Shown: positions 22,747-43,490 of the stretch, one piece after another
Layout: each line of letters opens with the position of its first letter
Numbering within the stretch: the first letter of the stretch is position 1
DNA from: Crossiella sp. SN42
Lineage (GTDB): Bacteria > Actinomycetota > Actinomycetes > Mycobacteriales > Pseudonocardiaceae
NCBI RefSeq assembly: GCF_023897065.1
Contig: NZ_JAMHIV010000020.1
Coordinates: 1 to 64,000 of the forward strand
DNA: 64,000 nucleotides
Direction of reading: 5' to 3'
The notes under the pieces: model-generated
What the model was told of the DNA's origin: nothing
The model's database searches: none
The model's input: the letters and a program-made list of their open reading frames with translations, nothing else
Program-made: the position numbers and the translations under genes

Positions 22747-23772
22747 TCAGCTCTTGCGGGCGACCAGCCGGTAGTTGTGGTGCAGCCGGTAGCGGCGGGC
22801 CAGTGGGCTGAGCAGCCAGCTGGCCGCCGCGGCCAGGGCGACCAGCGGCACCGTCACCAGCAGGCCGAGGGCCCTGGCGAGCTGCCCGGTCCTGGTCGGG
22901 CGGGGCAGCCAGGGGCGGTCCGGCGGGGGGATCAGCTCGCCGAGCAGGTGCATCGCCGCGCTGGTCAGGCCGTGGGAGCGGGCCGGGTCGTCGGTGGTCT
23001 CGCTGAGCACGGTGAAGCCCAGCTCGGTGAGCGCGGCGCGCAGGTTCGCCCTCGGCGCGAAGTGCAGGTGCTGCGGCTGCATCCAGCCGATCCAGTAGCG
23101 GCCGGTGAGCTTGGGCCACGCCGACTCCGGGTCGGGCACCTCGACCAGCAGCAGGCCGCCCGGGCGCAGCACCTTCATCGCGGCCTCCAGCTCGCGCCGC
23201 GGGTCGGTGCTGTGCTCCAGGTAGTGGTGCATGCTGACCACGTCGTAGCGCTCGGCCAGTTCCGGGGCCAGCGCGGGGAACTCGCCGCGGTAGCCGCGCC
23301 GGATCCAGCCCCGGTCGCGGGCCAGCTCCACCCCGCCGCCGAAGTCCAGGCCGTCGAAGCTGGTGCGCGGCAACACCTTCCGCGCGGTGCGGCAGAAGTG
23401 GCCGTGTCCGCAGCCGACGTCCAGCCAGCTGGCCGGGTCGGCGTGCGGCACGATCAGCGCGGCGCGTTCCCGGTACTGCCGGGTCTGCACGCTGAAGGTG
23501 ATGTCCATCACCCGCTCGCCGAGGCCGTCGTAGAAGTCGCGGTAGTAGAAGGCCAGGCCCGCGGCGGACAGGCGGGGGTTCTGGAAGACGTGCGCGCAGT
23601 CGGCGCAGCGGTCCAGCCGGAAGCGGCCCGGCTTGCGCTGCACCAGGTCCGGGCTGCGCAGCAGCAGCGTGATCCGGGTCGAGCCGCACCACGGGCAGGT
23701 GGCCCGGCGCGGTTCGAAGAACCTGGCCACACCCTCGGCCAGCTCGGCGGCGTACTCCGCTCGTCTGTCCAT
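22747..23772 (-). CDS. Zinc-ribbon class I SAM methyltransferase (paralogue 1, short form)
   Basis: 341 residues from the ATG at 23772. An N-terminal Cys4 zinc ribbon (CPWC at 26-29, CADC at 56-59) precedes the SAM-binding loop WLDVGCGHGHFC (116-127), MHHYLEHSTDP and LRPGGLLLVEVPDPES. A C-terminal hydrophobic segment is followed by a basic tail. It corresponds to the C-terminal half of the two longer paralogues at 23778 and 27950. The start follows the upstream paralogue's stop by 5 bp, so the two are one unit. The likely substrate is a sugar or lipid intermediate of the PKS locus, but this is inference from linkage. Confidence 0.75.
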   Translation of the reverse strand: MDRRAEYAAELAEGVARFFEPRRATCPWCGSTRITLLLRSPDLVQRKPGRFRLDRCADCAHVFQNPRLSAAGLAFYYRDFYDGLGERVMDITFSVQTRQYRERAALIVPHADPASWLDVGCGHGHFCRTARKVLPRTSFDGLDFGGGVELARDRGWIRRGYRGEFPALAPELAERYDVVSMHHYLEHSTDPRRELEAAMKVLRPGGLLLVEVPDPESAWPKLTGRYWIGWMQPQHLHFAPRANLRAALTELGFTVLSETTDDPARSHGLTSAAMHLLGELIPPPDRPWLPRPTRTGQLARALGLLVTVPLVALAAAASWLLSPLARRYRLHHNYRLVARKS

Positions 23773-27949: not shown

Positions 27950-29797
27950 TCAGTCCTTGCGGGCGAGCAGGCGGTAGGCGCTGGAGGCGCCGTACTTCTT
28001 CGACAGCGGGGAGAGCAGCCGGTCGGTCAGCGCCGCGGTGACCAGCGCCGGGGCCGCCGCGATCATCGCCGCGGTCCGCCCGGCCTTGGCGCCGGGGGTC
28101 GGCGGCTGGGGCGCCCAGGGCGCGTTGTCGCGGGGGGCGTAGTGGTTGACCGCGTTCCAGGCGGCGCCGACCAGGTCGAGCGGCTCGTGGGGTTCGCCGC
28201 GTTGTTCGGCGACCACGGTGAAGCCCATCTCGGACAGGGCGGCGCGCAGGTTGCCGATCGGCACGAAGTGCAGGTGCTGGGGCTGGAGCCAGGGCAGCCA
28301 CCACTTGCCGAGCAGCTTGCCCCAGCGGGACTCCGGGTCCGGCACCTCGATCATCAGGTGGCCGCCGGGCTTGAGCACCTTGAGCGCGGCCTCCAGCTCC
28401 TGGCGCGGGTCCCGGCTGTGTTCCAGGTAGTGGTACATGCTGACCACGTCGTAGCTCTCGTGGATCTCGGCGGCCAGCTCCGGGAACAGGCCCCGGTAGC
28501 CGCGGTCGACCCAGCCGCGGTGCTCGGCCAGCTCCACGCCCTCGGTGATGTCCAGGCCGTCGAAGGTGGTCTGCGGCCACACCTGGCGGGCGGCGTTGCA
28601 GAAGTGCCCGTGCCCGGTGCCCACGTCCAGCCAGGACTCCGGTTCGGCGAAGGGCCGCAGCATCTCCGCGCGCGGCCGGTAGGCGACTCCGCGGGCGGCG
28701 AAGAGCTTGTCCAGCTTGTCCTCGCCGAGGCCGTCGTAGAAGTCGCGGTAGTAGAAGTCCAGTCCGGCGATGGTCAGCCGCGGGTTCTGGAAGATGTGCG
28801 TGCAGGCCCGGCAGCGGTCCAGGGTGAACTCGCCCGGCTTGTGCTGCAACAGGTCCGGCAGCCGCAGGTGGGTGGCCAGGTCGGTGCTGCCGCACCACGG
28901 GCAGTCGGCGCGGCGTGGCTCGAAGAACTTGGCCACCCCGTCGGCCAGCTCGGCCAGGTAGGCCGGGCGCAGCCTGGTCACCGGGTCCGGATCGTCCGAA
29001 GTGGACAGTCGGGCCTCGGAGATGGCGGCCAGCAGGCGTTTCGGCTCGGCGACGACCCGGCGCACGCTGTAGGAGAGCAGGTCGACCGGCTTGAGGCTGC
29101 GGCTGCCGGCGAAGACCACGGCGGGCTGGGCGGACCAGGCGGCCAGCAGCGCGGCCGTCCAGCCGGGGCCGAGCACCGAGCTGCCTGCCATGATGGCCAG
29201 CCAGCCCAGCCGGGGCCCGAGCTCGCCGGCGGTCTTGCGGCCGTGGTAGCGGGCCAGGATCCGGGCGTCGTCCTCGACGATCTCCGGCGAGCTGGTCAGC
29301 CGGGGGCTGACCACCAGGTCGGTGCTGTCGGGGGCGTGCAGCTTGAGCTTGGCCGCGGCGTGGCCGAGCTCGGCGGCGTCCCGGCCGCCGTGGCCTGCCG
29401 GATAGCCCGCGGCGTGCAGCACGCCGTCGTCGGCGAGCACCGCGTGCCAGGCGCCGGCGCCCCTGGCCTGCCGGTCGGTGCGGTAGTTGGCCGGGTCCAC
29501 GGTGCGCAGCAGGTCCATGGCCTGCGCGGTGGGCAGGTCGCGGGGCACCAGTTCCAGCGCGCACAGGCCCTCGGCCTTGGCGTGCGCGCGGGCGGCGTTG
29601 AGGGTGGGGCCGTCCACGGTGACGCCGTCGGCGTGCAGCAGGCGGTACCGGTCGTCCCCGGGGGCCGGGCGTTCCGGCAGGGTGCGCAAACCGGCCAGGC
29701 GACGGCGCAGCGCGGCGGTGTCGAGCACCAGACCGGCCAGGAGCGCGGCCTGGACGCCACGGCGCAACCAGGTCCGGGCAGTGGAACGCGGGCTCAC
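27950..29797 (-). CDS. Two-domain protein: unknown N-terminal domain plus zinc-ribbon SAM methyltransferase (paralogue 3, PKS operon)
   Basis: 615 residues from the GTG at 29797, which overlaps the glycosyltransferase stop (GTGA). It has the same architecture as the protein at 23778. A hydrophobic N-terminal helix and a domain of about 270 residues (LELVPRDLPTAQAMDLLRTVDP, AALLAAWSAQPAVVFAGSRSLKP) precede the Cys4 ribbon (CPWCGS, CRACT) and the methyltransferase (WLDVGTGHGHFC, YLEHSRDP, LKPGGHLMIEVPDPES). As last gene of the PKS-GT operon it probably modifies the glycosylated lipid. Whether the N-terminal domain is a second catalytic unit, such as a degenerate glycosyltransferase, cannot be judged by eye. 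Confidence 0.72.
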   Translation of the reverse strand: MSPRSTARTWLRRGVQAALLAGLVLDTAALRRRLAGLRTLPERPAPGDDRYRLLHADGVTVDGPTLNAARAHAKAEGLCALELVPRDLPTAQAMDLLRTVDPANYRTDRQARGAGAWHAVLADDGVLHAAGYPAGHGGRDAAELGHAAAKLKLHAPDSTDLVVSPRLTSSPEIVEDDARILARYHGRKTAGELGPRLGWLAIMAGSSVLGPGWTAALLAAWSAQPAVVFAGSRSLKPVDLLSYSVRRVVAEPKRLLAAISEARLSTSDDPDPVTRLRPAYLAELADGVAKFFEPRRADCPWCGSTDLATHLRLPDLLQHKPGEFTLDRCRACTHIFQNPRLTIAGLDFYYRDFYDGLGEDKLDKLFAARGVAYRPRAEMLRPFAEPESWLDVGTGHGHFCNAARQVWPQTTFDGLDITEGVELAEHRGWVDRGYRGLFPELAAEIHESYDVVSMYHYLEHSRDPRQELEAALKVLKPGGHLMIEVPDPESRWGKLLGKWWLPWLQPQHLHFVPIGNLRAALSEMGFTVVAEQRGEPHEPLDLVGAAWNAVNHYAPRDNAPWAPQPPTPGAKAGRTAAMIAAAPALVTAALTDRLLSPLSKKYGASSAYRLLARKD

Positions 29798-30966
29798 TCG
29801 GAGATCCTTCCGATGGCGATGGGTGCGGCGAGCTCCTCCAGGCGCAGCGCGGCGGCCTGCGAGCCACCCGCGGCGATGAAGGACTGGGCGAGGCGGCGGG
29901 CGGCCTCGCGGTGACCCGGCTCGTCGAGCACGGTGGCGACCGCGTCCCTGATGTGCGCGGCGCCTGCCCTGGTGAACCGCAGGCGGATGCCCGCCCCGGC
30001 GTCGGCGACCTGTTGCGCGATCACCGGCTGGTCGTCCCTGATCGGCGCCACCACCAGGGGCAGGCCGTGGCTGAGGGACTCGCAGACGGTGTTGTGCCCG
30101 GCGTGGCAGACCACCGCGTCGACCTTGGGCAGCAGCGCCAGCTGCGGCACCCTGGTCGCGGTGATCACGTTGTCCGGCACCGAGGTCACCGTGCCCGCCG
30201 GGTCGACCAGCACGGCCTGGACCCGGTCGGCCAGCTCGCCCATGGCCTCGGCGGCCGCGCGCAGGAACCGCTCCCCGGCGTCGGCGTTGGCGGTGCCCAG
30301 ACTGATCAGCACCTTCGCCCGCTGGTCCAGTCGTTCCCACGGAAACGGTGTGGGGTCAGGGCGTTCGGTGATCGACGGGCCGACGAAGGCGACCCGGTCG
30401 AAGGCGGGGTCCAGCTCTCCCACCAGTTCCCTGGTGGTGAAGGCGAGGGTCAGGTGCGGGGAGTAGCGCAGGTCGGTCTCCCCGGCCACCGCGGCCCGCG
30501 CCCGCATCCCGGCCATGGTCTCCTGGACCCATTCCACGACCTTCGGCATGCCGCGCAACGGGTCGGTGAACTCCGCGGAGGTGGTCGCCGAGGTCGCCCA
30601 GGGCAGCCCGAGCCGCAGCGCGGCCAGCGCGCCGGCCATCGCCTGCTGGTCCACCACCAGGACATCCGGCTGGAACTCGCCGATCGCGGCCTCCACGTCG
30701 GGCAGCATCGACTCGGCCAGCGGGACCAGGAACTGCTCCCACAGGAACTTCAGCGCCCCCGGCCCGCGCAGGTCAGCCGGGCGTTCCTCGACCTGCGTGG
30801 GGGTGGCGCAGTCGTAGACCTTCGCCGCCGGCCCGGTGAGCTGGCGGAGGAACTCGGCGTGTCCCGCCCAGGCCACCTGGTGCCCGCGCGCGGAGAGCGC
30901 CGCGCCGAGCCCGATGGTCGGGTTGACGTGCCCGAACAGTGGCGGGACCACAAAAAGTACTCTCAC
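29794..30966 (-). CDS. GT1-family (MGT-like) glycosyltransferase
   Basis: 390 residues from the GTG at 30966. The GT-B fold starts with VRVLFVVPPLFGHVNPTIGLGAAL. The C-terminal nucleotide-sugar site is AVVCHAGHNTVCESLSHGLPLV followed by DDQPVIAQQV, the signature of macrolide/sterol-type UDP- or NDP-sugar transferases. It is expected to glycosylate a hydroxylated lipid or polyketide. The start overlaps the hydrolase stop and its own stop overlaps the next start (both GTGA), so it belongs to the PKS operon without doubt. Sugar identity is unknown, and no sugar-nucleotide biosynthesis genes lie in the window. Confidence 0.9.
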   Translation of the reverse strand: MRVLFVVPPLFGHVNPTIGLGAALSARGHQVAWAGHAEFLRQLTGPAAKVYDCATPTQVEERPADLRGPGALKFLWEQFLVPLAESMLPDVEAAIGEFQPDVLVVDQQAMAGALAALRLGLPWATSATTSAEFTDPLRGMPKVVEWVQETMAGMRARAAVAGETDLRYSPHLTLAFTTRELVGELDPAFDRVAFVGPSITERPDPTPFPWERLDQRAKVLISLGTANADAGERFLRAAAEAMGELADRVQAVLVDPAGTVTSVPDNVITATRVPQLALLPKVDAVVCHAGHNTVCESLSHGLPLVVAPIRDDQPVIAQQVADAGAGIRLRFTRAGAAHIRDAVATVLDEPGHREAARRLAQSFIAAGGSQAAALRLEELAAPIAIGRISE

Positions 30967-31766
30967 ACCCCGACCTTCGCCCCGTGTCCGGCCAGCCAGT
31001 CCAGCAGCAGCTCCCGCATCACCTTGGGCGCCTCCACCAGCACCGAGTGCTCCTGTCCCGGCACGATCACCGTGCGGCAGTGCGGCAACGCGGCTTCCAG
31101 CGCCGGCGCCTGCTCGGCCAGGTCGGACTCGCTGCCGTACACCGCGAGCACCGGCGCGGTGATGCCCGCGACCTGCTCGGCGGTGAGCACCGGCCCGGTG
31201 GGCAGCTCGTCGGCGATCGCGGTGGCGTGCAGCATCTTCCCGGCGGCCTTGGCCAGCTTGGAGGTGTGCCCGCCCCGGTTCTCGGTGATCCACTCCAGCG
31301 CTTCGGCCTGCTGCAGCTGTTCGCGGGCCCGGCCCAGCATCTCGGCCATCTTCACCGACCAGGCCTGGCTGGTCGGCTCGGACTCGATCACCACGATGCT
31401 GGCCACCCGCGCGGGGTGGGCGACGGCGAAGCTGAAGGAGACCGTGCCGCCGTAGGAGTTGCCGACCAGGTGCACCGGCCCGGTGATCTCCAGCTCGTCC
31501 AGCAGCGCGGTCAGGTCGGCCACCGCGTCGGAGACCCGGTAGCCGTGCTCGGCGCGCTCGCTGCGGCCGTGGCCGCGCAGGTCGTAGGCCACCACCTGGT
31601 GTCCCGCCGCGGCCACCGGCCCGGCCAGGGTGAAGTAGAAGCTGGCCAGGCTGTCGGTGCCCAGGCCGTGGACGAACACCACGGTCGGCGGGTCGGCCGC
31701 CGTGGTGTTCTTGGCCGCCATCCGCTGCACGTGCATGCGGATGCCGTTAGCCTGTACGACCGCCAA
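30963..31766 (-). CDS. Alpha/beta hydrolase, candidate chain-releasing thioesterase or acyltransferase of the PKS operon
   Basis: 267 residues from TTG 31766, with GAGGGG about 10 bases upstream inside the end of the ACP gene. The oxyanion segment is FVHGLGTDS, the nucleophile elbow VGNSYGG (Ser104), the acid YGSESDL and the base His in PGQEHSVL, so the catalytic triad is intact. No separate thioesterase domain exists in either PKS protein, so this enzyme is the best candidate for releasing or transferring the finished chain. It follows the ACP gene by 2 bp. Confidence 0.78.
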   Translation of the reverse strand: MAVVQANGIRMHVQRMAAKNTTAADPPTVVFVHGLGTDSLASFYFTLAGPVAAAGHQVVAYDLRGHGRSERAEHGYRVSDAVADLTALLDELEITGPVHLVGNSYGGTVSFSFAVAHPARVASIVVIESEPTSQAWSVKMAEMLGRAREQLQQAEALEWITENRGGHTSKLAKAAGKMLHATAIADELPTGPVLTAEQVAGITAPVLAVYGSESDLAEQAPALEAALPHCRTVIVPGQEHSVLVEAPKVMRELLLDWLAGHGAKVGV

Positions 31767-31768
31767 GG

Positions 31769-32089
31769 TCAGTTCCCCTCGTCCAGCGCGCCGACCACGT
31801 AGTCGACGAGCTGGCCCACGGTCAGCGCGATGATCTGCTCGAGCTCGAGCTCGGCGATGAACTCGGCGAAGTTGACCCGGGAGCCGTAGCGCTCCTCCAA
31901 CTCGGCGGCGAGCGCGACCAGGTCGATGCTCTCCAGCTCCAGGTCGTCGTGGAAGGTCGAGTCCATCCGGACCTCGACCTCGTCAAAACCGTACTCGCCC
32001 AGCACTTTGTGCAGCATCACCGTGATGTCGGACAGCACGGCCTCGGGCGTCATCCGGACGAGCGTCAGGGGCGCTTCCGTGATCTCCAC
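31769..32089 (-). CDS. Discrete acyl carrier protein
   Basis: 106 residues from the GTG at 32089, with AGGAG 8 bases upstream. The phosphopantetheine attachment site is in LELESIDLVALAAELE, and the helical bundle with acidic surface is typical of type II ACPs. There is an N-terminal extension of about 15 residues. It is encoded 11 bp after PKS B and 2 bp before the hydrolase. It could accept the chain from the tandem ACPs of PKS A for release or glycosylation, or serve as a loading carrier. The PPTase domain of PKS B may activate it. Confidence 0.9.
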   Translation of the reverse strand: MEITEAPLTLVRMTPEAVLSDITVMLHKVLGEYGFDEVEVRMDSTFHDDLELESIDLVALAAELEERYGSRVNFAEFIAELELEQIIALTVGQLVDYVVGALDEGN

Positions 32090-32100
32090 CGAAATTTCTC

Positions 32101-35100
32101 CTATTCCTTGGTCCAGGCGACCACGTACTCGCCTGCGATCTCACCGTCAGGGTCGGTGATGACGGTCCACGTCACCGGGGTCGTGCGGCCGGTGGCGCCG
32201 CGGACGGTGAGCGTGTCACCCTCCGCGCCGACCACCTCGTACTCGGCGGCCTGGCCGCCGTGCGCCCGCGCGGCCGCGGTCAGCGCGGCGGCGAAGGCGG
32301 TGTTTCCGGGGCTGTCCTCGACCGCGCGGATGTCGATGCCGGTGGGCGCCTCGCCGTCGCGGGCGAAGGCCACGCCGACGCCGTCCTGCTGCGCGGTGCA
32401 GACGGTCAACGGCGGCAACGGGTTGCGGCCCACGACCGTGGCTTCACCGCTGACGGTCAGCTCCACCGGGAACATCGGCCCGGCGCCGCCGTCCCACAGG
32501 TGCTGGCGCACCGCGTCCTTGACCGCCATCCGCCCGAGCAGCCACCGCCGCCGCACCCTCGGCGAGGTGGCCTCGTACTCGGCGCGTTCGGCGGCGTTGA
32601 GGTAGATGCGCATCATCAGGTCGCGGGAGGCGACATCCGGCCAGCGTTCCCACACCACCAGGAAACCGGCGTCGCGGCGTTCGGAGAGCCGGTTGTGCTC
32701 GGGGAAGCGCTCGACCTTCTTGGTGTTCTCGTTGCTGGCGAAGCGCCGGTCCAGCCAGGCGTCGATCTCGCACCACACCCGGCCCTGGTGCACCAGCTGC
32801 ATGGCGCCGCCGAAGACGGTGTCGGTGAGCTCGGTGATCCGCACCAGGCAGTCCAGCCGCGCGCCGGGTTCGGGCTCGGGGCCGAAGAAGCGGATGCGGT
32901 CCATGGACATCGGGAACACCACGCGCTTGTCGGTGACGTTCTCCATGATCCAGTACCCGAAGACCTGGCCGACGTTGTCCAGCAGCGCGCCCGGCCCGCC
33001 GGGCACGGTGATCACGCCGCGGATGTGGTGCTCGCCGATGCCGTCCAGCGCGGTGACGCCTTGGTAGAGCGGGCCGTGGAACATGAACCGCTCTTCGTAG
33101 AGCTGCCGTGCGGTGATCTTCGGCGCCCACTCGCGTTCGGCGAAGGTCCACACCGGCAGGTCGGCGGCCGGGTAGGCCGGCGCGAGTTCGATCTCGGCCT
33201 CGGCGTTCTGGCCGAGGGTCACCTTGACCCGGTTGGCGGACAACGGGGTGACGGTGATCTCGACCTGCGTGGGCGGCGCGACGACGAGCCAGCGGAACAG
33301 CCGCACGTTGTGCACGGTGACCGCGCGCTGGCCGGGCGCGGCCTGTTCGGCGGCGTCCATCATGTGCTTGATCATCGTGGTGGCCGGGACCACCGGGAAG
33401 CCGTCGGTGTCGTCGGGCCAGCCCGCCGGGGTGCGGTAGAAGCTGTGGTCGCGCAGGTAGGGCATGGTCTTGGTGGACAGGTGCAGCGTGGTGCGCAGCG
33501 GCTGGGCCGGTGCGGGGGCGGCGACCCGGGCCTGGAAGGCGGCGGGAAGGCCAGCGGAGCCGGTGCGGGCGGCCTCCAGGACGGTCGCCGCGGTGTCGGC
33601 GGTGTCCTGGAGCAGCCCGCCGAGCTCGCTTGCGAGCGGGAAGCTGGCGGCCAGCCGGTCCAGTTCGGCGAAGGCCCCGCCGAGCTCGCCCACCGGCGCG
33701 ACCGAGCGTGCCGGGGCGACCGCGGCCTTGATCGCGCCGGGCAGGTCGCCGCCGAGCCGGACCGTGGTCGCGGACAGGTCCAGGGGGATTTCCTTGCCGG
33801 CGCGGGTTTTCCGCGGGGCCGGGTCGAGCCGGTCGGGGTGGGTGGGCGCGCCTTCGGCCCACAGTCCGGTGAGCACCCGGCGCAGCTGGCCCAGGCCGCT
33901 GACCTTGGGGCTGTTCGCGGAGATGGACAGGTGTTCCTGCCCGGCAAGGGAATCCGAGACCAGGGTGCTCAGCGCGCCGGTGCCGACCTGGATGAAGGCC
34001 CGGACTCCCGCGGCGTGCATGGCCTGCACCAGCGGGCGGAACCGGACCGGTTCGAGGAGGTGCCGGATGAACAGTTCCCGTTTGGCCTGCTCGCCCTCGG
34101 GAAAGGGCGCGGCGGTGGTGGCCGACCACATCGGGATGCTCGGCTCGTGCAGCCGGAACCCGGCCGCGGCCTCCCGGATCGGGTCCAGGTAGGGGGCGAG
34201 CATGGGGGTGTGGAAGCCGGAGCGGAAGGGCAGCACCTGGCCGAGCACGTTCTTCGCGCGCAGTTCCAGCACCAGCTCCCGCACCACGGGTTCCAGGCCG
34301 CAGACGATGGACTGGTTGGGCGCGTTGTCGTGGGAGAGCACCACGCCGTGCCGTCCGGCCATCACCTCGGTGACCCGGTCCGCGCCGCAGCCGAAGGCGG
34401 CGAAGACCACGCCGGGCACGCGCAGTGAGTCCGGGTCGAACTTGGCCAGGAACTCGTCGATCTGGGTCTGCTCGTAGATGCCGCTGGTGATCATCGCGGT
34501 CCACTCGCCGACGCTGTGCCCGGCGATGTGGTCGGGCTGGACGCCGAGCTTGCGCAGCACGGTGTCGAGCAACCGGCCGACGCCGACCACGCCCGCGCCG
34601 TGCGCGCCCACGTTGCCGGTGTCCAGGCCGGGCACGGTGAGGCCGAAGTGCGCGGCCACGTCGTCCACCCTGGGCTCGAAGTCGGCTTCCAGGCCGGGGT
34701 AGACGAAGGCGACCTTGCCGCCGTTGGCCAGTAAGGGTTCCGGGCTGAACCAGACGTCGTTGCGGCCGCGCCAGGCGACCTGTTTGCCGACCACCTTGCG
34801 CGCGATGCCGAGCCGTTTCGCGGTGGGCGCGACGATGCCCAGCCTGCATCCGTCCTCAGTGGACGGTGCGGTGGAGCGGATCTCGGCATCGGGCAGGTCG
34901 AGCAGCTCGGCCAGGCGGGCCGGGGTGGGCGCGCTGATGGTGAGCACCCGCTCCGGCTCGGTGACCGTGATCGCCGGACGGTCCACAGTGGACGGTGCTT
35001 CTTCGAGGACCACGTGGGCGTTGATGCCGCCGAAGCCGAAGGCGTTGACCGCGGCCCGCCGCACCTCCTGGCCCTCGGACAGCTCCCAGGGCTGGGCGGT

Positions 35101-36396
35101 GTCCAAGGGGCGGAACCGGGTCTGGGCGAGGTCGGCGTGCGGCTGCTCGCAGTGCAGGGTGGGCAGCAGCACCTGCCGGTGCAGCGCCAGCGCGGCCTTG
35201 ACCAGGCTGGCCACCCCCGCGGCCGGCATGGTGTGGCCGATCATAGACTTGACCGAGCCGATCACCGCGCTGGGCCCCTCGGAGCCGAAAACCCGTTGCA
35301 GGGTGGCCAGTTCCGCGCCGTCGCCGGCCGGGGTGGCGGTGCCGTGCGCTTCCAGCAGACCGACCGAGCCGGGCGCGGCGGGGTCGAGTCCGGCCGCCGC
35401 CCAGGCCCGCTGCAACGCGAGGACCTGGCCCTCGGGCTCGGGGTTGAACAGGCTGGCGCTGCGGCCGTCGCTGGCCACGCCGGTGCCGCGGATCACCGCG
35501 TACACCCGGTCGCCGTCCCGCTGGGCGTCGGCAAGTCGTTTCAGCACCACGACTCCGGTGCCCTCGCCGATCAGGATGCCGTCGGCGCGGCGGTCGAACG
35601 GCCGGATCTGCTGGTCCTTGGACAGCGCGCGGAGCTGGGAGAACACGCTCCAGAAGGTGACGTCGTGGCAGTGGTGCACGCCACCGGCCAGCATCACGTC
35701 GCAGCGCCCGGCGGCCAGTTCGGTGACCGCCTGGTCGACCGCGACCAGGCTGGAGGCGCAGGCGGCGTCCACGGTGTAGGCGGGGCCGCGCAGGTCCAGG
35801 CGGTTGGCGATGCGGGAGGCGGCCAGGTTGGGCACCAGGCCGATCGCGGACTCCGGGGAGGCCGGGCCGAGCTGGTCGACGAAGGCCTGCCGGACCGCGG
35901 CCAGCTGGTCCGCGCCCAGGTCGGGCAGCAGGTCGCCGAGGGTCTTGGCCAGCTGGTGGGCGGTGCGCACCCGCTGGTCCAGGCGCACCAGGCCGGGGGT
36001 GAGGTAGCCGCCGCGGCCGAGCACCACGCCGATCCGGTCCGGCGCGGGCAGCTTCTCCTGCCCGCCTGCGTCGGCGATCGCGGCCGCGGCCACCCGCAGC
36101 GCGATCAGCTGGTCGGGTTCGGCGCCGGAGACCGAGTTCGGCATGATGCCGAAGCTCACCGGGTCGAAGCTGGCCTTGACGAACCCGCCGCGGCGGCAGT
36201 AGACCTCCTCCGCCTTGGCCGGTCCGGTGGCCGAGTCCGGGTGGTAGAAGTCGGCGTCCCAGCGGTCGGCAGGCACCTCGGTGATGGCGTCGACGCCGTT
36301 GACCAGGTTGTGCCAGTAGGACTCCAGGTCGCCAGCGCCGGGTAGCAGCACGGCCATCCCGACGATCGCGACCGGGGTGGTCTGGGTCATGGTCAC
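32101..36396 (-). CDS. PUFA-synthase-like iterative PKS subunit B: KS-AT-DH-PPTase
   Basis: About 1431 residues. It starts at GTG 36396, overlapping the PKS A stop, or at ATG 36390. KS: about 8-450, active-site DAACASS (Cys213), EAHGTATPAGDGAE and IGHTMPAAG histidines. AT: about 545-880 with GHSVGEW (Ser628) and FHTPML. DH: hotdog region about 970-1200 with RDHSFYRTPAG (His984) and FPVVPATTMIKHMMDAAE. C-terminal PPTase-like domain: about 1235-1431, with GRMAVKDAVRQHL and GIDIRAVED. This combination is found in PUFA, heterocyst-glycolipid and enediyne-type iterative synthases. It has no ACP or KR of its own, so it must work with PKS A. A built-in PPTase suggests self-activation of the complex. 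Confidence 0.88.
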   Translation of the reverse strand: MTMTQTTPVAIVGMAVLLPGAGDLESYWHNLVNGVDAITEVPADRWDADFYHPDSATGPAKAEEVYCRRGGFVKASFDPVSFGIMPNSVSGAEPDQLIALRVAAAAIADAGGQEKLPAPDRIGVVLGRGGYLTPGLVRLDQRVRTAHQLAKTLGDLLPDLGADQLAAVRQAFVDQLGPASPESAIGLVPNLAASRIANRLDLRGPAYTVDAACASSLVAVDQAVTELAAGRCDVMLAGGVHHCHDVTFWSVFSQLRALSKDQQIRPFDRRADGILIGEGTGVVVLKRLADAQRDGDRVYAVIRGTGVASDGRSASLFNPEPEGQVLALQRAWAAAGLDPAAPGSVGLLEAHGTATPAGDGAELATLQRVFGSEGPSAVIGSVKSMIGHTMPAAGVASLVKAALALHRQVLLPTLHCEQPHADLAQTRFRPLDTAQPWELSEGQEVRRAAVNAFGFGGINAHVVLEEAPSTVDRPAITVTEPERVLTISAPTPARLAELLDLPDAEIRSTAPSTEDGCRLGIVAPTAKRLGIARKVVGKQVAWRGRNDVWFSPEPLLANGGKVAFVYPGLEADFEPRVDDVAAHFGLTVPGLDTGNVGAHGAGVVGVGRLLDTVLRKLGVQPDHIAGHSVGEWTAMITSGIYEQTQIDEFLAKFDPDSLRVPGVVFAAFGCGADRVTEVMAGRHGVVLSHDNAPNQSIVCGLEPVVRELVLELRAKNVLGQVLPFRSGFHTPMLAPYLDPIREAAAGFRLHEPSIPMWSATTAAPFPEGEQAKRELFIRHLLEPVRFRPLVQAMHAAGVRAFIQVGTGALSTLVSDSLAGQEHLSISANSPKVSGLGQLRRVLTGLWAEGAPTHPDRLDPAPRKTRAGKEIPLDLSATTVRLGGDLPGAIKAAVAPARSVAPVGELGGAFAELDRLAASFPLASELGGLLQDTADTAATVLEAARTGSAGLPAAFQARVAAPAPAQPLRTTLHLSTKTMPYLRDHSFYRTPAGWPDDTDGFPVVPATTMIKHMMDAAEQAAPGQRAVTVHNVRLFRWLVVAPPTQVEITVTPLSANRVKVTLGQNAEAEIELAPAYPAADLPVWTFAEREWAPKITARQLYEERFMFHGPLYQGVTALDGIGEHHIRGVITVPGGPGALLDNVGQVFGYWIMENVTDKRVVFPMSMDRIRFFGPEPEPGARLDCLVRITELTDTVFGGAMQLVHQGRVWCEIDAWLDRRFASNENTKKVERFPEHNRLSERRDAGFLVVWERWPDVASRDLMMRIYLNAAERAEYEATSPRVRRRWLLGRMAVKDAVRQHLWDGGAGPMFPVELTVSGEATVVGRNPLPPLTVCTAQQDGVGVAFARDGEAPTGIDIRAVEDSPGNTAFAAALTAAARAHGGQAAEYEVVGAEGDTLTVRGATGRTTPVTWTVITDPDGEIAGEYVVAWTKE

Positions 36397-39300
36397 CAGC
36401 CCGAGGCGGAGTAGACGACCGAGCGGACCGCGTCGCCGCCCCAGGCGAGCTCCCGCAGCAGCGCCAGGGTGCCCTCCTCGGGGTCGATCAGCTCGATGCC
36501 GCGCCGGGTGTAGGACTGCATCAGCTCGGGGGTGACCATGCCGCCGTGCTTGGCCGAGGGCGCCCACGGTCCCCAGTGGACGGTCAGGCCGCGGCCGCCG
36601 GTGCGCTCCGACCAGGTGATGCCCAGGGACTCCAGGGCGTCGTTGGCCGCGGCGTAGTCGACCTGGCCGCGGTTGCCCAGCGCGGCGGCGATGCTGCCGA
36701 ACAGGACCGCGAACCGGGGTCCGGTCTCGCCGAGGTCGGAGACGGCCTCCAGGAGCTGGCGGGCGCCGTCGACCTTGGTGCCGAAGACCCGGCGGAAGCT
36801 CTCGATGTCCTTCTCCGCCAGCAGCTTGTCCTCGATCACGCCGGCGGCGTAGACCACGCCGTCCAGGCGGCCGTGCTCGGCGTGGATCTCCTTGACCAGC
36901 TGGCGCAGCGCGTCGTGGTCGCGCACGTCCACCGAGTGGTAGCGGGTCTGGCTGCCCAGTGCGATGAGTTCGTCCACAGTGGACTGGACTTCGCGCTGGG
37001 CCAGGATGCGGTTCGCGGTGCGCTCGATCTCGGCCGGGTTGCGCAGGCCCTGCTGGATCAGCGCGGCCCGCAGCTGGGTCTTGTCGGTGGCCGCCTTGGT
37101 GGCGGGGTGTTCTGCCTCGGTGGCGGGTGCGGTGCGGCCGACCAGTTCGATCCGGCAGCCGCTGGCCGCGGCCACGGTGGCGGCGAACTGGGCGGTGATG
37201 CCCCTGGCGCCGCCGACCAGCAGCACCACCGAGTCCCGGTCCAGGCCGATCGCACTGGCCTCGGTGGAGCCGTCCCCGGCAGGCCCCGCGCCCAGGCCGA
37301 GCGAGCCGAGCGGGGTGGCCACCATCTCCAGCGCGTGCCGCCCGCCTTCGCGGCGCAGCACCACCGGGTGCCGGTCGGAGGCGAGGATCTCGGCGAAGAG
37401 CGCGGCGGCCGGGTCGGTGTCGGTCTCCACCAGGCTGGCGTGGGTCTCCGGGTACTCGCGGGCGATGGTGCGGAACAGCCCGCGCAGCCCGGCGGCCCGG
37501 CCGAGCTGGCTCGGCGCGGCGGCGAGCAGCCAGCTGACGCCGCGCACCAGCGCGGACTGGAAGGCGGGGAAGGTCTCCGGCAGGACCGGCAGGTCGCCGT
37601 CGGCCAGCGCGTCCAGGAAGACCACGCCGTCGATGCGGCCGTCGGCCTCGGTGAGCACGCGGGCGGTGGACTCGATCCGGGCCTGCGCGCCGTTCTCCAG
37701 CAGCAGCGCGGAGAGCTCGTTCGCGCCGGTGCCGCCGAAGAGGATGAACCGCTTGCCCGCCAGGGTTTCCACGCCGGCCGGGGCGGCGGCGGAGATGTCG
37801 ACCGGGGTGAGCAGGAACCGCTTGGGCGCGATGCCGCCGGAGGCCGCGGGGGCCGCCGTGACCGGTGCCGCCGGGGCCGGGATGGCGGCCACGGGTTCCG
37901 ACGTCGCGGCCGGAGCGCCGGACTTGGCCGCCAGCCAGCCCGCGATCGAGGCGGCGGTGCGGGCCTTGGCCAGGTCCTCCAGCTCGGCGTCGCCGAGGCT
38001 GGCCGCGTCCATCCCGTCGCCGAGCTTGGCCGCGAGCTCACCGGCGATCTCGGTGCGCTTGATGGAGTCGATCGAGAGGTCGGCTTCCAGGTCCAGGTCC
38101 GGTTCGATCATGTCGATCGGGTAGCCGGTGCGGTCGCTGATGATCTGCAGCACGGTGCCGAGCAGCTCGGCCTCGCTCGGTCCACTGGCCGCGACCGGCG
38201 CGGGAGCCGCCGCCGGGACCGGCGCCTGGGTAACCTTTCCGCCCAGCCAGGCCGAGATCGCCGCCGCGGTGCGGGCCTTGGCCAGGTCCTCCAGTTCGGC
38301 GTCGGACAGGCTGGCCGCGTCCATCCCGCCACCCAGCTTGGCCGCCAGCTCACCGGCGATCTCGGTGCGCTTGATGGAGTCGATGGACAGGTCGGCTTCC
38401 AGGTCCAGGTCCGGTTCGATCATGTCGATCGGGTAGCCGGTGCGGTCGCTGATGATCTGCAGCACGGTGCCCAGAACGTCCACAGTGGACGGTGCGGGCA
38501 CGGGAGCCGGTGCGGCGACTGGCGCTGCGACCGGGGCGGGCGCGGCGACCGGCTGGGCCAGCGGGGCCTGCGCGACCGCAGGCAGCTGCTGGATCACCTG
38601 CGGCACCACGTGCTGGGTGCCGGGCGCGGTGCCGAAGTAGGTGAGCAGCACATCGCGCTGGGCGGCCAGGATCTCCCGGCTGGTCCGCAGGAACTCGCTG
38701 ACCAGGGCGTCGTGCTGACCAGCTGGCTGGGGCTGCGGCTGGCTCATGGTGGTGGTCTCCAGGTGGACGCGGCGGGCCGGGGCCAGGCCGCCGGTGAGGT
38801 AGCCGCCGTCGGCGGTGCGCACGACGTGGCCGTCGATGGTCCAGCCGGCGCGCTTGGGCAGGGGGGTGGCCGAGACGTCGCGGGCGTCCCGGCCCTGGAA
38901 CAGCCAGCCGGTGCGCAGGGACACCCCGGCGGTGGCCAGCGCGGCCAGCGCGCCGAGGAAGCCGCGCAGACCGCTGTCCGCGCTGGGCTCCACGGTGACC
39001 GTGGTGTGCGGGCGGTCGCCGAGGATGTCCTTGACCAGCCGGGAAAGCACCTTGCCGGGGCCTGCCTCGACGAAGACCCTGGCGCCGTCGGCGTACATGG
39101 CCTCGACCTGGTCGACGAAGCGCACCGGGGAGCCGATCTGCGCGGCCAGTTCGGCGCGCACGTCGTCGGTGTAGGGGGCGGCGGTGCGGTTGGCCCACAC
39201 CGGGACCTCCGGGGTGTGGATGTCCACAGTGGACAGGACCTGCGCGAACCGGTCACCGGCCTCGGCGATGAGTGGGCTGTGGAAGGCGCAGGCCACCGGG

Positions 39301-42300
39301 ATCGGCTTGGCGCTCAGTCCGGCCGCCTTCAGCTCGGTGACCGCCTTGCCCACGCCCTCGGTGGTGCCGGAGATGACGACCTGCTTGGGCGAGTTGTGGT
39401 TGGCCAGCACCACTTCGCCGCGCAGCCCGGCCTGGTCCAGGACCTCGAGGACCGCGGCGGCCTGGCCGGAGACCGCGGCCATGGTGCCGGGGTCGCCACC
39501 GGCGGCCTCGGCGGCGGCCAGGATCGACTCGGCGCGGGCCGCGGAGATCGCCAGCAGCGTGTCCGCGTCGATCGCGCCCGCCGCGGCCAGCGCGACCAGC
39601 TCGCCGTAGCTGTGCCCGGCCACCAGGTCGGCCCGCACGCCGAGCTTGCCGAGCAGCTGGTGCACGGCGAGCCCGGCGATGCCCAGCGCGGGCTGGGCGG
39701 TCCTGGTGTCACGCAGCCGGGCCTCGTTGTCCTTGGCCACCGCGGAGTCGAAGGCCGCCGGCGGGAACAGCAGGTCGGCGTACTTGTGCCCGCGCTGCAA
39801 CAGGTGCTGCACCTCGGGGAAGGCCACGAACAGCTCGGCCAGCATCCCGGTGCGCTGGCTGCCCTGCCCGGGGAAGAGCAGGGCCAGCTTGCCGGACTCG
39901 GTGTGACCGGCCAGGTACACCCCCGCGGCCGGGTCGTGCTCGCCGGCGACCGCGCGGCGCAGCTGGCCGACCAGGCCGTCCAGGCTGTCCGCGACCACGG
40001 CCACCTGCACCGGTTCGGTGCGGGCGTCGGCGGTGCGGGCGGCGGTGCGCGCCAGGTCCCGCAGCCGCCAGGGCCGGCCGCCGGTGTCGTTGGCCGCGGC
40101 CAGTTCCAGCAGCTTCTCGATGGACTTGGCGGCCGCGCGCAGGTCGGCGCCGCGGAAGGTGAACAGCTCGGCGGGCCAGGCGTCCACGCTGTGCCGGGGA
40201 GCGGGCTGGTCGACCGCGGCGAGCACGGTGTGGAAGTTGGTGCCGCCGAAGCCGAACGCGCTCACCCCGGCGACCCGCTTGGCCGGTTCGGTGGCCCAGG
40301 GCCGGGCCGCGGTGTGGAAGACGAACGGGCTGGAGTCCTTGTCCCAGGCCGAGTTCGGCGTCTGCACGTGCAGCGTGGGTGGCTTGACGCCGGTGTGCAG
40401 CGCGAGCGCGGCCTTGATCAGCCCGGCCAGCCCCGCCGCGCACTTGGTGTGCCCGATCTGGGACTTCACCGAGCCGATCGCGCAGGTCCCCGGCTGGGCC
40501 CCGGCCTCGGTGAACATCGTGGTCAGGGTGGCCAGCTCGGTGCGGTCGCCGACCACGGTGCCGGTGCCGTGCGCCTCGACCAGGCCGACCTCGGCGGGGG
40601 AGAGGTGCGCGTTGGCGTAGGCCCGTTCCAGCGCCGCGCGCTGGCCCTCGGGGCGCGGGGCGGTCAGGCCGAGGGACTTGCCGTCGCTGGCCGAACCGAG
40701 GCCCTTGACCACCGCGTAGATCTTGTCGCCGTCCCGCTGGGCGTCGGACAGTCGTTTCAGCGCAACGCAAGCCACGCCTTCACCGAGGGCGATGCCGTCG
40801 GCGGTGGCGTCGAAGGTGCGGCTGCGGCCGGTGGCCGAGAGCGCGTGCACCGAGGCGAAGAGCAGGTAGTCGTTGATGCCGTTGTGCAGGTCCGCGCCGC
40901 CGCAGAGCACCAGGTCGCTGGTGCCGTTGACCAGTTCCTTGCAGGCCACGTCGAGCGCGGCCAGCGAGGAGGCGCAGGCGGCGTCCACGGTGTAGTTGGC
41001 GCCGCCGAGGTCCAGGCGGTTGGCGATGCGGCCGGAGATGACGTTGGCCAGCATGCCGGGGAAGGAGTCCTCGGTCAGCGGCGGCAGCTGGTCCACCAGC
41101 TCCTTCGGCAGGCTGTCCAGGTAGGCGGGCAGCACCGCGCGCAGGGTGGTGGCGTTGGACAGGTCCGAACCGGCCTCGGCGCCGAAGACCACCGAGGCGC
41201 GGGAGCGGTCGAACTCGCGGTCGCCGTCGTACCCGGCGTCGCGCAGCGCCCGGCGGGCGACCTCCAGTGCGAGCAGCTGCACCGGTTCGATGCTGGCCAG
41301 CGAGGTGGGCGGGATGCCGTAGCTGAGCGGGTCGAACGGGATCCGCGGCAGGAACCCGCCCCAGCGCGAGGGGGTGCGGTCGTTGATGTTCTTGCCGGTG
41401 GCGTCGGGGGAGTAGTAGGTGGCGGCGTCCCAGCGCTCGGCCGGGACCTCGGTGACCGCGTCCACGCCGCCGACGATGTTGGCCCAGAAGGTGGCCAGGT
41501 CGGGGGAGTCGGGGAAGACGCAGGCCATGCCGACGATGGCCACATCCAGCGGCGGCGGCGCCACCGGCTGGGTGCGCGCGGCGGCCAGGCCGAGTCGCTG
41601 CCCGAGCAGCTCCCGTTGTGCGGCAAGGAACTCCGCCGCCTCACCGGTGACCGACTCGTGCAGCGCGGCCACCGTGGTGACCTCATCGCGCAGCACCGCG
41701 ACCTGACCGGCCATGAACAGGCCGTCGGCGAGCTGCTCGGTCTCGTCGGCGGCGATGAGGTCGTTGCCCTCGCGGCGGATGCCCTTGCTGGCGATGCGCA
41801 GCCTGCCGACGTTGAGGCTTTCCAGGTGCTCCCAGACCTCCCGGTCGGGCACGCCCTTGGCGGTCAGCTCGGCCTTGATCGCCTGGAAGCTGTCGGCGAA
41901 GGGGCTGGTGACGCAGCGGGTGGCGTGGCCGGGCGCGGTCTCCAGCAGCTCGGTGCCCTCGGCGGCCAGCACCTGCTGCTGGAACAGGGGTTGCACCGCA
42001 CCGGCGCTGACCGCCTCCTGGGTGAACAGGTAGGCGGTGCCCATCAGCACGCCGATCCCGACGCCCTTGGCGGCCAGTGGCGCGGCCATCGCGGCGACCA
42101 TGGCGGCCGAGCGCGCGTCGTGCACACCCCCGGCGAAGAGCACCTGGAGGTCGCCGCCGGTCTTGTTGCCGAGGTGGTCGAGCAGCACCGAGATCTGGGC
42201 TTCCCACAGGGCGAAGCTGGCGCGCGGGCCGACGTGCCCGCCGCATTCGCTGCCCTCGAAGATGAACCGGCGCGCCCCGGCCTCCACGAACTGCTTGAGC

Positions 42301-43490
42301 AGGCCGGGGGAGGGCACGTGCAGGAAGGTCGTGATGCCGACCTCCTCCAGCGCGGCGGCCTGTGAGGGGCGGCCGCCGGCGATGATCGCGTGCGTGGGCC
42401 GCAGCTCGCGGATGACCTCCAGCTGCGCGGCCCTGGTGTCCTCCGGCGCGAACCCGAGCACGCCGACGCCCCACGGGCGCTCGCCCAGCGCGGCGGCGGT
42501 CTCGGTCATCATCCGCCGGGTCTGCTCCTTGCCCGCCAGGGCGAGCGCGACGAAGGGCAGGCCGCCGCCGGTGGCCACCTCGGCGGCGAAGGCGGCCTGG
42601 TCGCTGACCCTGGTCATCGGGCCCTGCGCGATGGGCAGCGGCACGCCGATGGCCTCGGCGAAGGCCGAGCCGGGGCGCAGCACCGCTTCCAGGGCGTCCT
42701 GGGTGAGCGCGGCGGTGATCGCGTCGCGGACGGCGTGCACCGCCCGGCCGGTGGTGCGGTAGCGCTCGGCGAAGCGGGCGGCCAGGAAGATGTCCTGGCC
42801 CAGCTCCAGTGCGGGCGCGGGGGTGCGGCCCTTGCGGGCGAGCACCCGGCGGCCGTCCACGACGGCGGTCTCCGAGCCGTCCAGGGTGCGCAGCAGGGCC
42901 GCGGTGGTCTCCGGCAGCTCGGACTCCTCCAGCAGCGCGAGCTGGGTGTCCAGCACCACGCCGGTGGCGCCGCCGAGCACGGCCGCGGCCGCGGTGTGCG
43001 TGCCGATGCCGCCGGCCAGCCAGATCGGCAGGTCCAGGCCGGAGGTGGCGACGAGTTTCTGCAGCAGCACGAAGGAGCTGAGCTCGCCGACCAGGCCGCC
43101 GGCCTCGTTGCCGCGGGCGATCAGCCCGGCGGCCCCGGCGGCGGCCGCGGCGCGGGCCTGCTCCACGGAAGTGATCTCTGCCAGCACCCGGTAGTGGGCG
43201 GCGATGTCAGCGAGTTGCCAAGAGCTGTCCCCAGTCAACACGACCGTGTCAACTTCGGTGGGGAGGTCGGCAGGGGTCAGCGCGCAGCCCGAGGGCACGC
43301 GCACACCGAAGGGGCCGGACACCCAGCGCTGGGCGAGGGCGAGTGCTTCCCGAGTCGACCGGGCGCCGGTGCCGAGGTCGAGAACTCCGAGTCCGCCTGC
43401 TTGGCGGACCGCTGCGACGAGACGTGCGTTGGCCTCGCCGAAGGGGGTAACCCCGAGGACGAGCTCACGCCGTTCCGACTGCGCGGCCAT
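36393..43490 (-). CDS. PUFA-synthase-like iterative PKS subunit A: ER(PfaD/nitronate-monooxygenase type)-KS-AT-ACP-ACP-KR
   Basis: 2365 residues from the ATG at 43490, with CGGAGG five bases upstream. Residues 1-640 are a flavin TIM-barrel of the PfaD/2-nitropropane-dioxygenase group (IPIAQGPM-like LPIAQGPMTRVSDQ, AGGRPS, FEGSECGGHVGPR), i.e. a trans-type enoyl reductase fused at the N-terminus. KS: about 647-1090 with DAACASS (Cys839), EAHGTGTVVGD and GHTKCAAG. AT: about 1210-1560 with FPGQGSQ and GHSYGEL (Ser1294). Two nearly identical ACPs carry LSIDSIKRTEI (Ser1705 and Ser1809), the form seen in PUFA synthases. KR: about 1930-2365 with VGGARGIT and the catalytic Tyr in GQVDYAAAND. First gene of the operon. 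Confidence 0.9.
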   Translation of the reverse strand: MAAQSERRELVLGVTPFGEANARLVAAVRQAGGLGVLDLGTGARSTREALALAQRWVSGPFGVRVPSGCALTPADLPTEVDTVVLTGDSSWQLADIAAHYRVLAEITSVEQARAAAAAGAAGLIARGNEAGGLVGELSSFVLLQKLVATSGLDLPIWLAGGIGTHTAAAAVLGGATGVVLDTQLALLEESELPETTAALLRTLDGSETAVVDGRRVLARKGRTPAPALELGQDIFLAARFAERYRTTGRAVHAVRDAITAALTQDALEAVLRPGSAFAEAIGVPLPIAQGPMTRVSDQAAFAAEVATGGGLPFVALALAGKEQTRRMMTETAAALGERPWGVGVLGFAPEDTRAAQLEVIRELRPTHAIIAGGRPSQAAALEEVGITTFLHVPSPGLLKQFVEAGARRFIFEGSECGGHVGPRASFALWEAQISVLLDHLGNKTGGDLQVLFAGGVHDARSAAMVAAMAAPLAAKGVGIGVLMGTAYLFTQEAVSAGAVQPLFQQQVLAAEGTELLETAPGHATRCVTSPFADSFQAIKAELTAKGVPDREVWEHLESLNVGRLRIASKGIRREGNDLIAADETEQLADGLFMAGQVAVLRDEVTTVAALHESVTGEAAEFLAAQRELLGQRLGLAAARTQPVAPPPLDVAIVGMACVFPDSPDLATFWANIVGGVDAVTEVPAERWDAATYYSPDATGKNINDRTPSRWGGFLPRIPFDPLSYGIPPTSLASIEPVQLLALEVARRALRDAGYDGDREFDRSRASVVFGAEAGSDLSNATTLRAVLPAYLDSLPKELVDQLPPLTEDSFPGMLANVISGRIANRLDLGGANYTVDAACASSLAALDVACKELVNGTSDLVLCGGADLHNGINDYLLFASVHALSATGRSRTFDATADGIALGEGVACVALKRLSDAQRDGDKIYAVVKGLGSASDGKSLGLTAPRPEGQRAALERAYANAHLSPAEVGLVEAHGTGTVVGDRTELATLTTMFTEAGAQPGTCAIGSVKSQIGHTKCAAGLAGLIKAALALHTGVKPPTLHVQTPNSAWDKDSSPFVFHTAARPWATEPAKRVAGVSAFGFGGTNFHTVLAAVDQPAPRHSVDAWPAELFTFRGADLRAAAKSIEKLLELAAANDTGGRPWRLRDLARTAARTADARTEPVQVAVVADSLDGLVGQLRRAVAGEHDPAAGVYLAGHTESGKLALLFPGQGSQRTGMLAELFVAFPEVQHLLQRGHKYADLLFPPAAFDSAVAKDNEARLRDTRTAQPALGIAGLAVHQLLGKLGVRADLVAGHSYGELVALAAAGAIDADTLLAISAARAESILAAAEAAGGDPGTMAAVSGQAAAVLEVLDQAGLRGEVVLANHNSPKQVVISGTTEGVGKAVTELKAAGLSAKPIPVACAFHSPLIAEAGDRFAQVLSTVDIHTPEVPVWANRTAAPYTDDVRAELAAQIGSPVRFVDQVEAMYADGARVFVEAGPGKVLSRLVKDILGDRPHTTVTVEPSADSGLRGFLGALAALATAGVSLRTGWLFQGRDARDVSATPLPKRAGWTIDGHVVRTADGGYLTGGLAPARRVHLETTTMSQPQPQPAGQHDALVSEFLRTSREILAAQRDVLLTYFGTAPGTQHVVPQVIQQLPAVAQAPLAQPVAAPAPVAAPVAAPAPVPAPSTVDVLGTVLQIISDRTGYPIDMIEPDLDLEADLSIDSIKRTEIAGELAAKLGGGMDAASLSDAELEDLAKARTAAAISAWLGGKVTQAPVPAAAPAPVAASGPSEAELLGTVLQIISDRTGYPIDMIEPDLDLEADLSIDSIKRTEIAGELAAKLGDGMDAASLGDAELEDLAKARTAASIAGWLAAKSGAPAATSEPVAAIPAPAAPVTAAPAASGGIAPKRFLLTPVDISAAAPAGVETLAGKRFILFGGTGANELSALLLENGAQARIESTARVLTEADGRIDGVVFLDALADGDLPVLPETFPAFQSALVRGVSWLLAAAPSQLGRAAGLRGLFRTIAREYPETHASLVETDTDPAAALFAEILASDRHPVVLRREGGRHALEMVATPLGSLGLGAGPAGDGSTEASAIGLDRDSVVLLVGGARGITAQFAATVAAASGCRIELVGRTAPATEAEHPATKAATDKTQLRAALIQQGLRNPAEIERTANRILAQREVQSTVDELIALGSQTRYHSVDVRDHDALRQLVKEIHAEHGRLDGVVYAAGVIEDKLLAEKDIESFRRVFGTKVDGARQLLEAVSDLGETGPRFAVLFGSIAAALGNRGQVDYAAANDALESLGITWSERTGGRGLTVHWGPWAPSAKHGGMVTPELMQSYTRRGIELIDPEEGTLALLRELAWGGDAVRSVVYSASGW
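38077..38471 (-). repeat. Direct repeat encoding the tandem ACP domains
   Basis: Two copies of the ACP coding segment lie 312 bp apart. An 83-bp core is identical in both (38077-38159 and 38389-38471), and the flanks differ by only a few bases. The copies encode the N-terminal halves of ACP1 and ACP2 up to the region of the phosphopantetheine serine. Such identity indicates recent duplication or ongoing homogenisation, as often seen in multi-ACP lipid synthases where copy number varies. Confidence 0.85.

Follow-up and report, generated by a model that had tools for sequence, protein, structure and literature searches.

Six genes on the minus strand, running from position 43490 down to 27950 of the 64,000-nucleotide stretch that was analysed (hereafter the window), form one operon on contig C13 of the 9.72-Mb genome of a Crossiella strain. 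In order, they encode two large synthases (PKS A and PKS B), an acyl carrier protein (ACP), an alpha/beta hydrolase, a GT1 glycosyltransferase (GT) and a methyltransferase (Table 1). All six reading frames are open, with zero internal stops; PKS A begins with ATG and has 2365 amino acids, and PKS B has 1431. The genes are joined by three 4-bp GTGA overlaps (PKS A with PKS B, hydrolase with GT, GT with methyltransferase) and by gaps of 11 bp between PKS B and the ACP and 2 bp between the ACP and the hydrolase. In each gene the third codon position is the most G+C-rich (0.83 to 0.97, computed on the open reading frames as first listed, some of which extend past the gene start). The original prediction had described this gene set and its tight junctions correctly. 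Its extent of 29794 to 43490 was too short, since the methyltransferase lies below 29794 and the unit spans 27950 to 43490. Within the operon there is no modular KS, no regulator, no other tailoring gene and no deoxysugar gene.

Table 1. Positions of the operon genes, their domains and the adjoining methyltransferase paralogs in the window.
Feature	Coordinates	Strand	Basis
PKS A: pseudo-ER, ER, KS, AT, ACP, ACP, KR	36393..43490	-	Pfam, ACP sites, TIGR02813
N-terminal FabK-like barrel, GGLVG replacing GGHVG	42822..43490	-	phmmer to FabK-type structures, column count
FabK-like enoyl reductase with His (GGHVG)	41625..42662	-	phmmer to FabK-type structures, column count
KS A, Cys-His-His intact	40365..41546	-	Pfam, residue audit
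AT A, Ser/His intact, CAFH	38961..39878	-	Pfam, residue audit
Stretch with two tandem ACP sites; phosphopantetheine Ser codons 38376-38378 and 38064-38066	38064..38378	-	
KR	36561..37229	-	Pfam, residue audit
PKS B: KS, AT, DH, PPTase remnant	32101..36396	-	Pfam
KS B, Cys-His-His intact	35146..36378	-	Pfam, residue audit
AT B, Ser/His intact	33970..34560	-	Pfam, residue audit
DH, PKS type, His and Asp intact	32527..33507	-	Pfam, residue audit
Eroded phosphopantetheinyl transferase domain without KEAxxK	32104..32526	-	Pfam (ACPS), motif count
Discrete acyl carrier protein, 106 aa	31769..32089	-	Pfam, residue audit
Alpha/beta hydrolase with nucleophile motif GNSYGG, predicted to release the chain or close a ring	30963..31766	-	Pfam
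GT1 glycosyltransferase, macrolide/YjiC type	29794..30966	-	Model scores, donor motif
Four-Cys zinc-ribbon-like and class I methyltransferase with unclassified N-terminal domain, 615 aa	27950..29797	-	
Two-domain methyltransferase paralog, 51% identical	23778..25568	-	
Paralog with methyltransferase domain alone	22747..23772	-	

Two methyltransferase paralogs follow the operon, at 25568 to 22747. The N-terminal domain of the operon's methyltransferase (28961 to 29797) gave no Pfam match at E ≤ 1; it recurs as a tandem copy in the window and as a third copy on contig C9 of the same genome. There, at about 115 to 119 kb (L199, L200), an ACP-hydrolase-GT-methyltransferase cassette stands without a PKS and is followed by an ABC ATPase; two genes upstream of it look, by their translations, like a glycerol-3-phosphate dehydrogenase and a TetR protein. 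This contig bears none of the genome's 71 KS matches. The four-gene, PKS-less cassette is present also in genome G016 and in Allokutzneria G034, and all five Crossiella genomes carry the three methyltransferases together with the C9 one.

Pfam resolved PKS A as NMO-KS-AT-ACP(x2)-KR and PKS B as KS-AT-DH. As predicted originally, PKS A holds a KS, an AT, two tandem ACPs that both read LSIDSIKR, and a KR. The single enoyl reductase (ER) of that prediction turned out to be two tandem FabK-like barrels, seen as two FabK-type matches by phmmer in the first 640 residues (within residues 24-222 and 278-626). The histidine of the GGHVG motif is catalytic in FabK-type enoyl reductases. At its column, the C-terminal barrel has His in 103 of 104 rows and the N-terminal barrel in 2 of 104 (17 gapped); in the Crossiella protein the N-terminal barrel reads GGLVG and the C-terminal one GGHVG. 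The AT A of PKS A carries a CAFH motif, which we take to be malonyl-type.

Active-site residues are conserved across relatives of the operon. The residue audit drew on 121 sources, continuation pieces included; rows with a stop in the segment were dropped, which left 104 to 117 per domain and 72 for the methyltransferase. The KS A Cys is present in 114 of 115 rows and the KS B Cys in 110 of 115, the other 5 being gapped; because its Cys-His-His triad is intact, KS B is not a chain-length factor. Also constant are the Ser and His of AT A and AT B (115/115 each), the KR Tyr, Ser and Asn (112/112), the DH His and Asp (117/117) and the Ser of the discrete ACP (113/113), and the counted tandem-ACP Ser is found in 99 of 112 rows (11 gapped). 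The hydrolase nucleophile is Ser in 106 and Cys in 8 of 116 rows, and its acid residue is Asp in 56 of 116 at the chosen column, the placement of which is not firm. The Asp and Gln of the DDQP motif of the GT occur in 109 of 109 rows, and the four Cys of the methyltransferase in 71 of 72.

Of the KS-AT-DH-PPTase order predicted for PKS B, the first three domains stand, and the C-terminal phosphopantetheinyl transferase (PPTase) is eroded: this stretch of the window gave no ACPS match at E ≤ 1, and in three relatives, one from Streptomyces and two from Allokutzneria, the corresponding stretch scores 48.8 to 58.6 bits. The KEAxxK motif occurs in 83 of 117 tails but neither in the window nor in any of the five other Crossiella rows, which come from four genomes. 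Given that the motif is kept in most relatives, the loss in Crossiella is probably secondary. The remnant is 79-96% identical within Crossiella and has therefore been kept as protein. Three other PPTases are encoded elsewhere in the genome.

KS A is 55% identical to the KS of a fused Beijerinckia synthase and 47-49% identical to three KS that match the PfaA model. In a tree of 51 KS rows, which has long branches and was built without HglE, the 13 KS A rows and the 12 KS B rows each form a clade (99/99 and 100/100, respectively). The six modular KS of the Crossiella genome make up a clade of their own (100/100), nested in a group (96/87) to which neither KS A nor KS B belongs. KS A groups with the Beijerinckia and Rhodobacteraceae SC52 synthases (93/86), and its grouping with PfaA-type KS is weak (89/36). 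Both KS thus fall outside the modular PKS clade, and the placement, like the KS A identities, agrees with the PUFA-synthase-like iterative PKS that had been predicted. Against the PfaA model (TIGR02813), PKS A scores 950 bits, below the cut-off of 1010; the genome match too stays below the cut-off, and the DH scores 14 bits. A separate region, on contig C15 of genome G000 (38-73 kb; L193, L194), holds five divergent KS domains in large open reading frames, which group with modular KS on long branches.

The synthase is of a known kind, the Type M secondary lipid synthase catalogued in 2011, and its gene combination is widespread and not rare. Excerpts of the catalogue by Shulse and Allen (PMC3098273) give its product as uncharacterised and list it in Actinosynnema, Frankia, Renibacterium and Streptomyces avermitilis. 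For Renibacterium, fused pfaDA and pfaBC with a PPTase domain are described (PMC13291983, excerpt). Taking the layout from that description, the Crossiella operon likewise has a fused ER-KS-AT-ACP-KR protein and a fused KS-AT-DH protein in an actinomycete, but the C-terminal PPTase domain of its second protein is the remnant described above. It also has a GT, whereas the word "glycosyl" is absent from the 2011 text (PMC3098273). With the PfaA-D PUFA synthases the operon shares the KS-AT-ACP-ACP-KR order, the tandem LSIDSIKR carriers and a FabK-like ER; it differs from them in its fused tandem ER, two active-looking KS, lack of a chain-length factor, PKS-type DH and glycosylation tail genes. 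Tandem ERs occur also in the synthases of Beijerinckia indica (L180) and, weakly matched, of Rhodobacteraceae SC52 (L181). In the Beijerinckia locus, an equally fused tandem ER-KS has genes for a PPTase, a GT and an ABC transporter in its vicinity, but the locus is alphaproteobacterial and has two KAS III-like genes in place of PKS B. It is borne on a plasmid, pBIND02. HglE-type synthases are iterative secondary lipid synthases whose product, a hydroxylated long chain, is glycosylated, and the Crossiella operon is predicted to resemble the HglE family of heterocyst glycolipid synthases in this outline. Regions of the hglE-KS type, which may include this operon, are recorded for several actinomycetes in excerpts of antiSMASH surveys (PMC9120177, PMC11004387, PMC8510958).

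At E ≤ 1e-3 the PKS B DH-region profile had matches, some of them weak, in 66 of 394 genomes sampled from the class, and a protein search gave matches in 80 of 200 genomes of the family. At E ≤ 1e-50, matches were confined to 7 of 296 sampled genomes of the phylum, the window's own included. The best 80 loci of a scan of a named collection (L079-L158), which are by that choice the closest relatives, include Streptomyces, Allokutzneria, Amycolatopsis, Kutzneria, Kitasatospora, Kribbella and others. Across 136 loci, the genes follow one another on one strand as DH-(ACP)-hydrolase-GT in 131, namely in all of these 80 (the ACP being unmatched in one, L085), in 32 of the 36 from the same family and in 19 of the 20 drawn from six other families in the class. 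At least five loci were fetched twice (L041/L079, L048/L081, L049/L080, L050/L104 and L078/L134, all with the core order), which leaves at most 131 distinct loci, 126 of them with the order. Because it recurs so often, the gene arrangement is more than chance. The exceptions (L068, L072, L073, L074 and L159) have no GT nearby, and L072 has no tail genes at all. Distances among KS A sequences track those among the tail genes and the KS of PKS B (Mantel r = 0.40-0.54; none of 500 permutations reached such a value), a correlation that does not separate linkage from shared species history and is given little weight.

The methyltransferase is less constant, with matches in 53 of the best 80 named loci, 14 of 36 family loci and 9 of 20 loci from other families. 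Directly after the GT call in the best 80 stand a methyltransferase (49 loci), an ABC exporter (13), another gene (12) or the contig end (1); the remaining five have no GT gene call, the GT having been found there by protein search. Six of the 36 family loci (L062, L063, L066, L067, L069 and, not contiguously, L070) have MCE-type genes downstream of the operon, and on examples from L063 and L069 Pfam recognised AMP-ligase, MlaE and Mce4/MlaD domains. The linkage of ABC or MCE-type transporters to some loci suggests an exported or envelope lipid. In all of these MCE-bearing loci except L070, an acyl-AMP ligase with, by eye, an SRPBCC-like front part precedes the MCE-type genes, and L062, L063, L066 and L067 also encode members of one protein family, identified in L063 as DUF6801. 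A plasmid of Streptomyces sp. NBC_00984 (NZ_CP108735.1) carries the same six genes at about 736219-751190, with no further biosynthetic genes beside them in its incomplete gene table. Transposase genes flank the set, about 0.9 kb away on the downstream side and 7.6 kb away on the upstream side, and the intervening genes are small, hypothetical or of group II introns. This stand-alone copy suggests that the six genes are a complete unit.

From the established genes, their order, domains and conservation, we infer the catalytic steps and the product as follows. The operon probably encodes an iterative secondary lipid synthase that builds a long hydroxyacyl chain with incomplete reduction, and a tail set that glycosylates and O-methylates this chain and sets it free. 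KS A and KS B would extend a malonyl-derived chain on the tandem ACPs, with the KR, the DH of the partner protein and the fused ER reducing it to a degree that differs by round and leaves some hydroxyls. The chain would then move to the discrete ACP, from which the alpha/beta hydrolase may release it or join it as an ester. The GT is predicted to glycosylate a hydroxyl, most likely with a common sugar, because the operon has no deoxysugar genes, and the zinc-ribbon-like methyltransferase would be the O-methyltransferase of the product, acting probably on the sugar. The carrier proteins are presumably activated by a PPTase encoded elsewhere in the genome. The conserved GT is most naturally read as a sign that the lipid is glycosylated. 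Against the scheme as a whole, the GT does not adjoin in 5 of 136 loci, the methyltransferase is missing in 27 of 80, 22 of 36 and 11 of 20 loci of the three samples, and the GT could have an acceptor other than the operon's lipid. The original prediction had left the choice between a long reduced and a polyunsaturated chain. Its iterative lipid is retained, and a polyunsaturated chain is not favoured over an oligohydroxy one, because the GT would need a hydroxyl and the operon has one DH and no KS-CLF pair. Among the open-licence literature matches listed, no compound is assigned to this gene set, in line with the earlier statement that no product had been described.

Three other products were weighed. 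We consider it unlikely that the operon makes a polyunsaturated fatty acid or polyene for the membrane, the GT forming a simple glycoside of its end. The PfaA-type KS and tandem ACPs would suit such a product, and three Kutzneria albida genes, which may be this operon, are called omega-3 PUFA synthase-like in an excerpt of PMC4210621. The operon, however, has no KS-CLF pair (as the KS B Cys counts above indicate), a single PKS-type DH with a low PfaA score, and a PfaA-model score below the cut-off for PKS A, on which grounds a polyunsaturated membrane lipid is disfavoured. Excerpted sources, moreover, call PUFA production undemonstrated in S. coelicolor (PMC3098273) and report that none was found for Nocardia (PMC4035055).

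By analogy with heterocyst glycolipids, the product might instead belong to nitrogen fixation or the vesicle envelope, given that the operon is near universal in Frankiaceae. In family f20, which we took as Frankiaceae from nifH in 25 of its 35 genomes, the PKS B DH marker occurs in 32 of 35; the tail genes are present in the 8 loci fetched, and Frankia sp. CpI1 has a glycolipid of undetermined structure (PMC4365757, excerpt). Yet 8 of the 10 nifH-minus genomes of f20 carry the marker and a nifH-plus genome rated complete (G216) does not, the operon is common among Streptomyces loci and present in Crossiella, and vesicle envelopes are described as hopanoid (PMC5745019, excerpt). The nifH comparison in f20 led us to reject this role, which we regard as highly improbable. 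We likewise see hardly any chance that the PKS pair feeds a small polyketide antibiotic, with the GT conferring self-resistance in the manner of macrolide-inactivating GTs. The GT does score with macrolide GT models, below their cut-offs, but the operon has none of the modular KS, regulator or further tailoring genes, 131 of 136 loci, from at least seven families, have the GT within the operon, and the donor motif of the GT is invariant in 109 rows.

Cycloviracin-type glycolipids are antiviral compounds isolated in the 1990s. The cycloviracins and fattiviracins are macrodiolides of glucosylated trihydroxy fatty acids with chains between C22 and C33, and cycloviracin has 2-O-methyl groups on three of its glucoses and lacks methyl branches at C2 (PMC4365757). 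The 2-O-methyl glucoses and missing branches would fit malonyl-only extension combined with a GT and a sugar methyltransferase. The cycloviracin producer, Kibdelosporangium albatum, is now Allokutzneria albata, and 3 of 3 Allokutzneria genomes carry the operon marker, a match at the level of the genus; Allokutzneria G034 has two methyltransferases in tandem after the GT. Fattiviracin is a product of Streptomyces microflavus. None of the titles among the literature matches listed announces a gene cluster for these compounds. We tentatively hypothesize, at somewhat less than even odds, that the operon family is the missing cycloviracin/fattiviracin locus, in which the PKS pair would make the C22-C33 trihydroxy fatty acids, the GT would add glucose, the methyltransferase would form the 2-O-methyl glucoses and the hydrolase would close the macrodiolide; in Crossiella and Allokutzneria, the second, PKS-less cassette might add further sugars.

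Against this assignment, a single GT must add five glucoses or have help from the second cassette. In addition, each of the three Allokutzneria genomes has at least one further Pfa-like synthase that scores above the operon's. In G034, the one genome of the three so surveyed, two other Pfa-like loci (read over about 27 and 30 kb) contain no GT among 20 genes by Pfam. In one of them, the roughly 8 kb around the ER gene hold an S-adenosyl methyltransferase of a family other than the operon's (PF04672), an alpha/beta hydrolase and a P450, which makes it a conceivable alternative cycloviracin locus. The other (contig 1, about 1.75 Mb; L208, L209) has ACP, KAS III, AMP-ligase, 3-beta-HSD-type and alpha/beta hydrolase genes, and resembles a polyunsaturated hydrocarbon (Ole plus Pfa) locus. 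Because the GT is the telling gene, our estimate for the cycloviracin assignment was left as it stood after this check.

This lipid operon is kept over several actinomycete families, and its synthase type was catalogued in 2011; the literature matches listed give no product for it. If the cycloviracin assignment is true, such glycolipids would be a general product of actinomycetes, Frankia included, and the link would tie an orphan synthase type to an orphan class of antiviral glycolipids.
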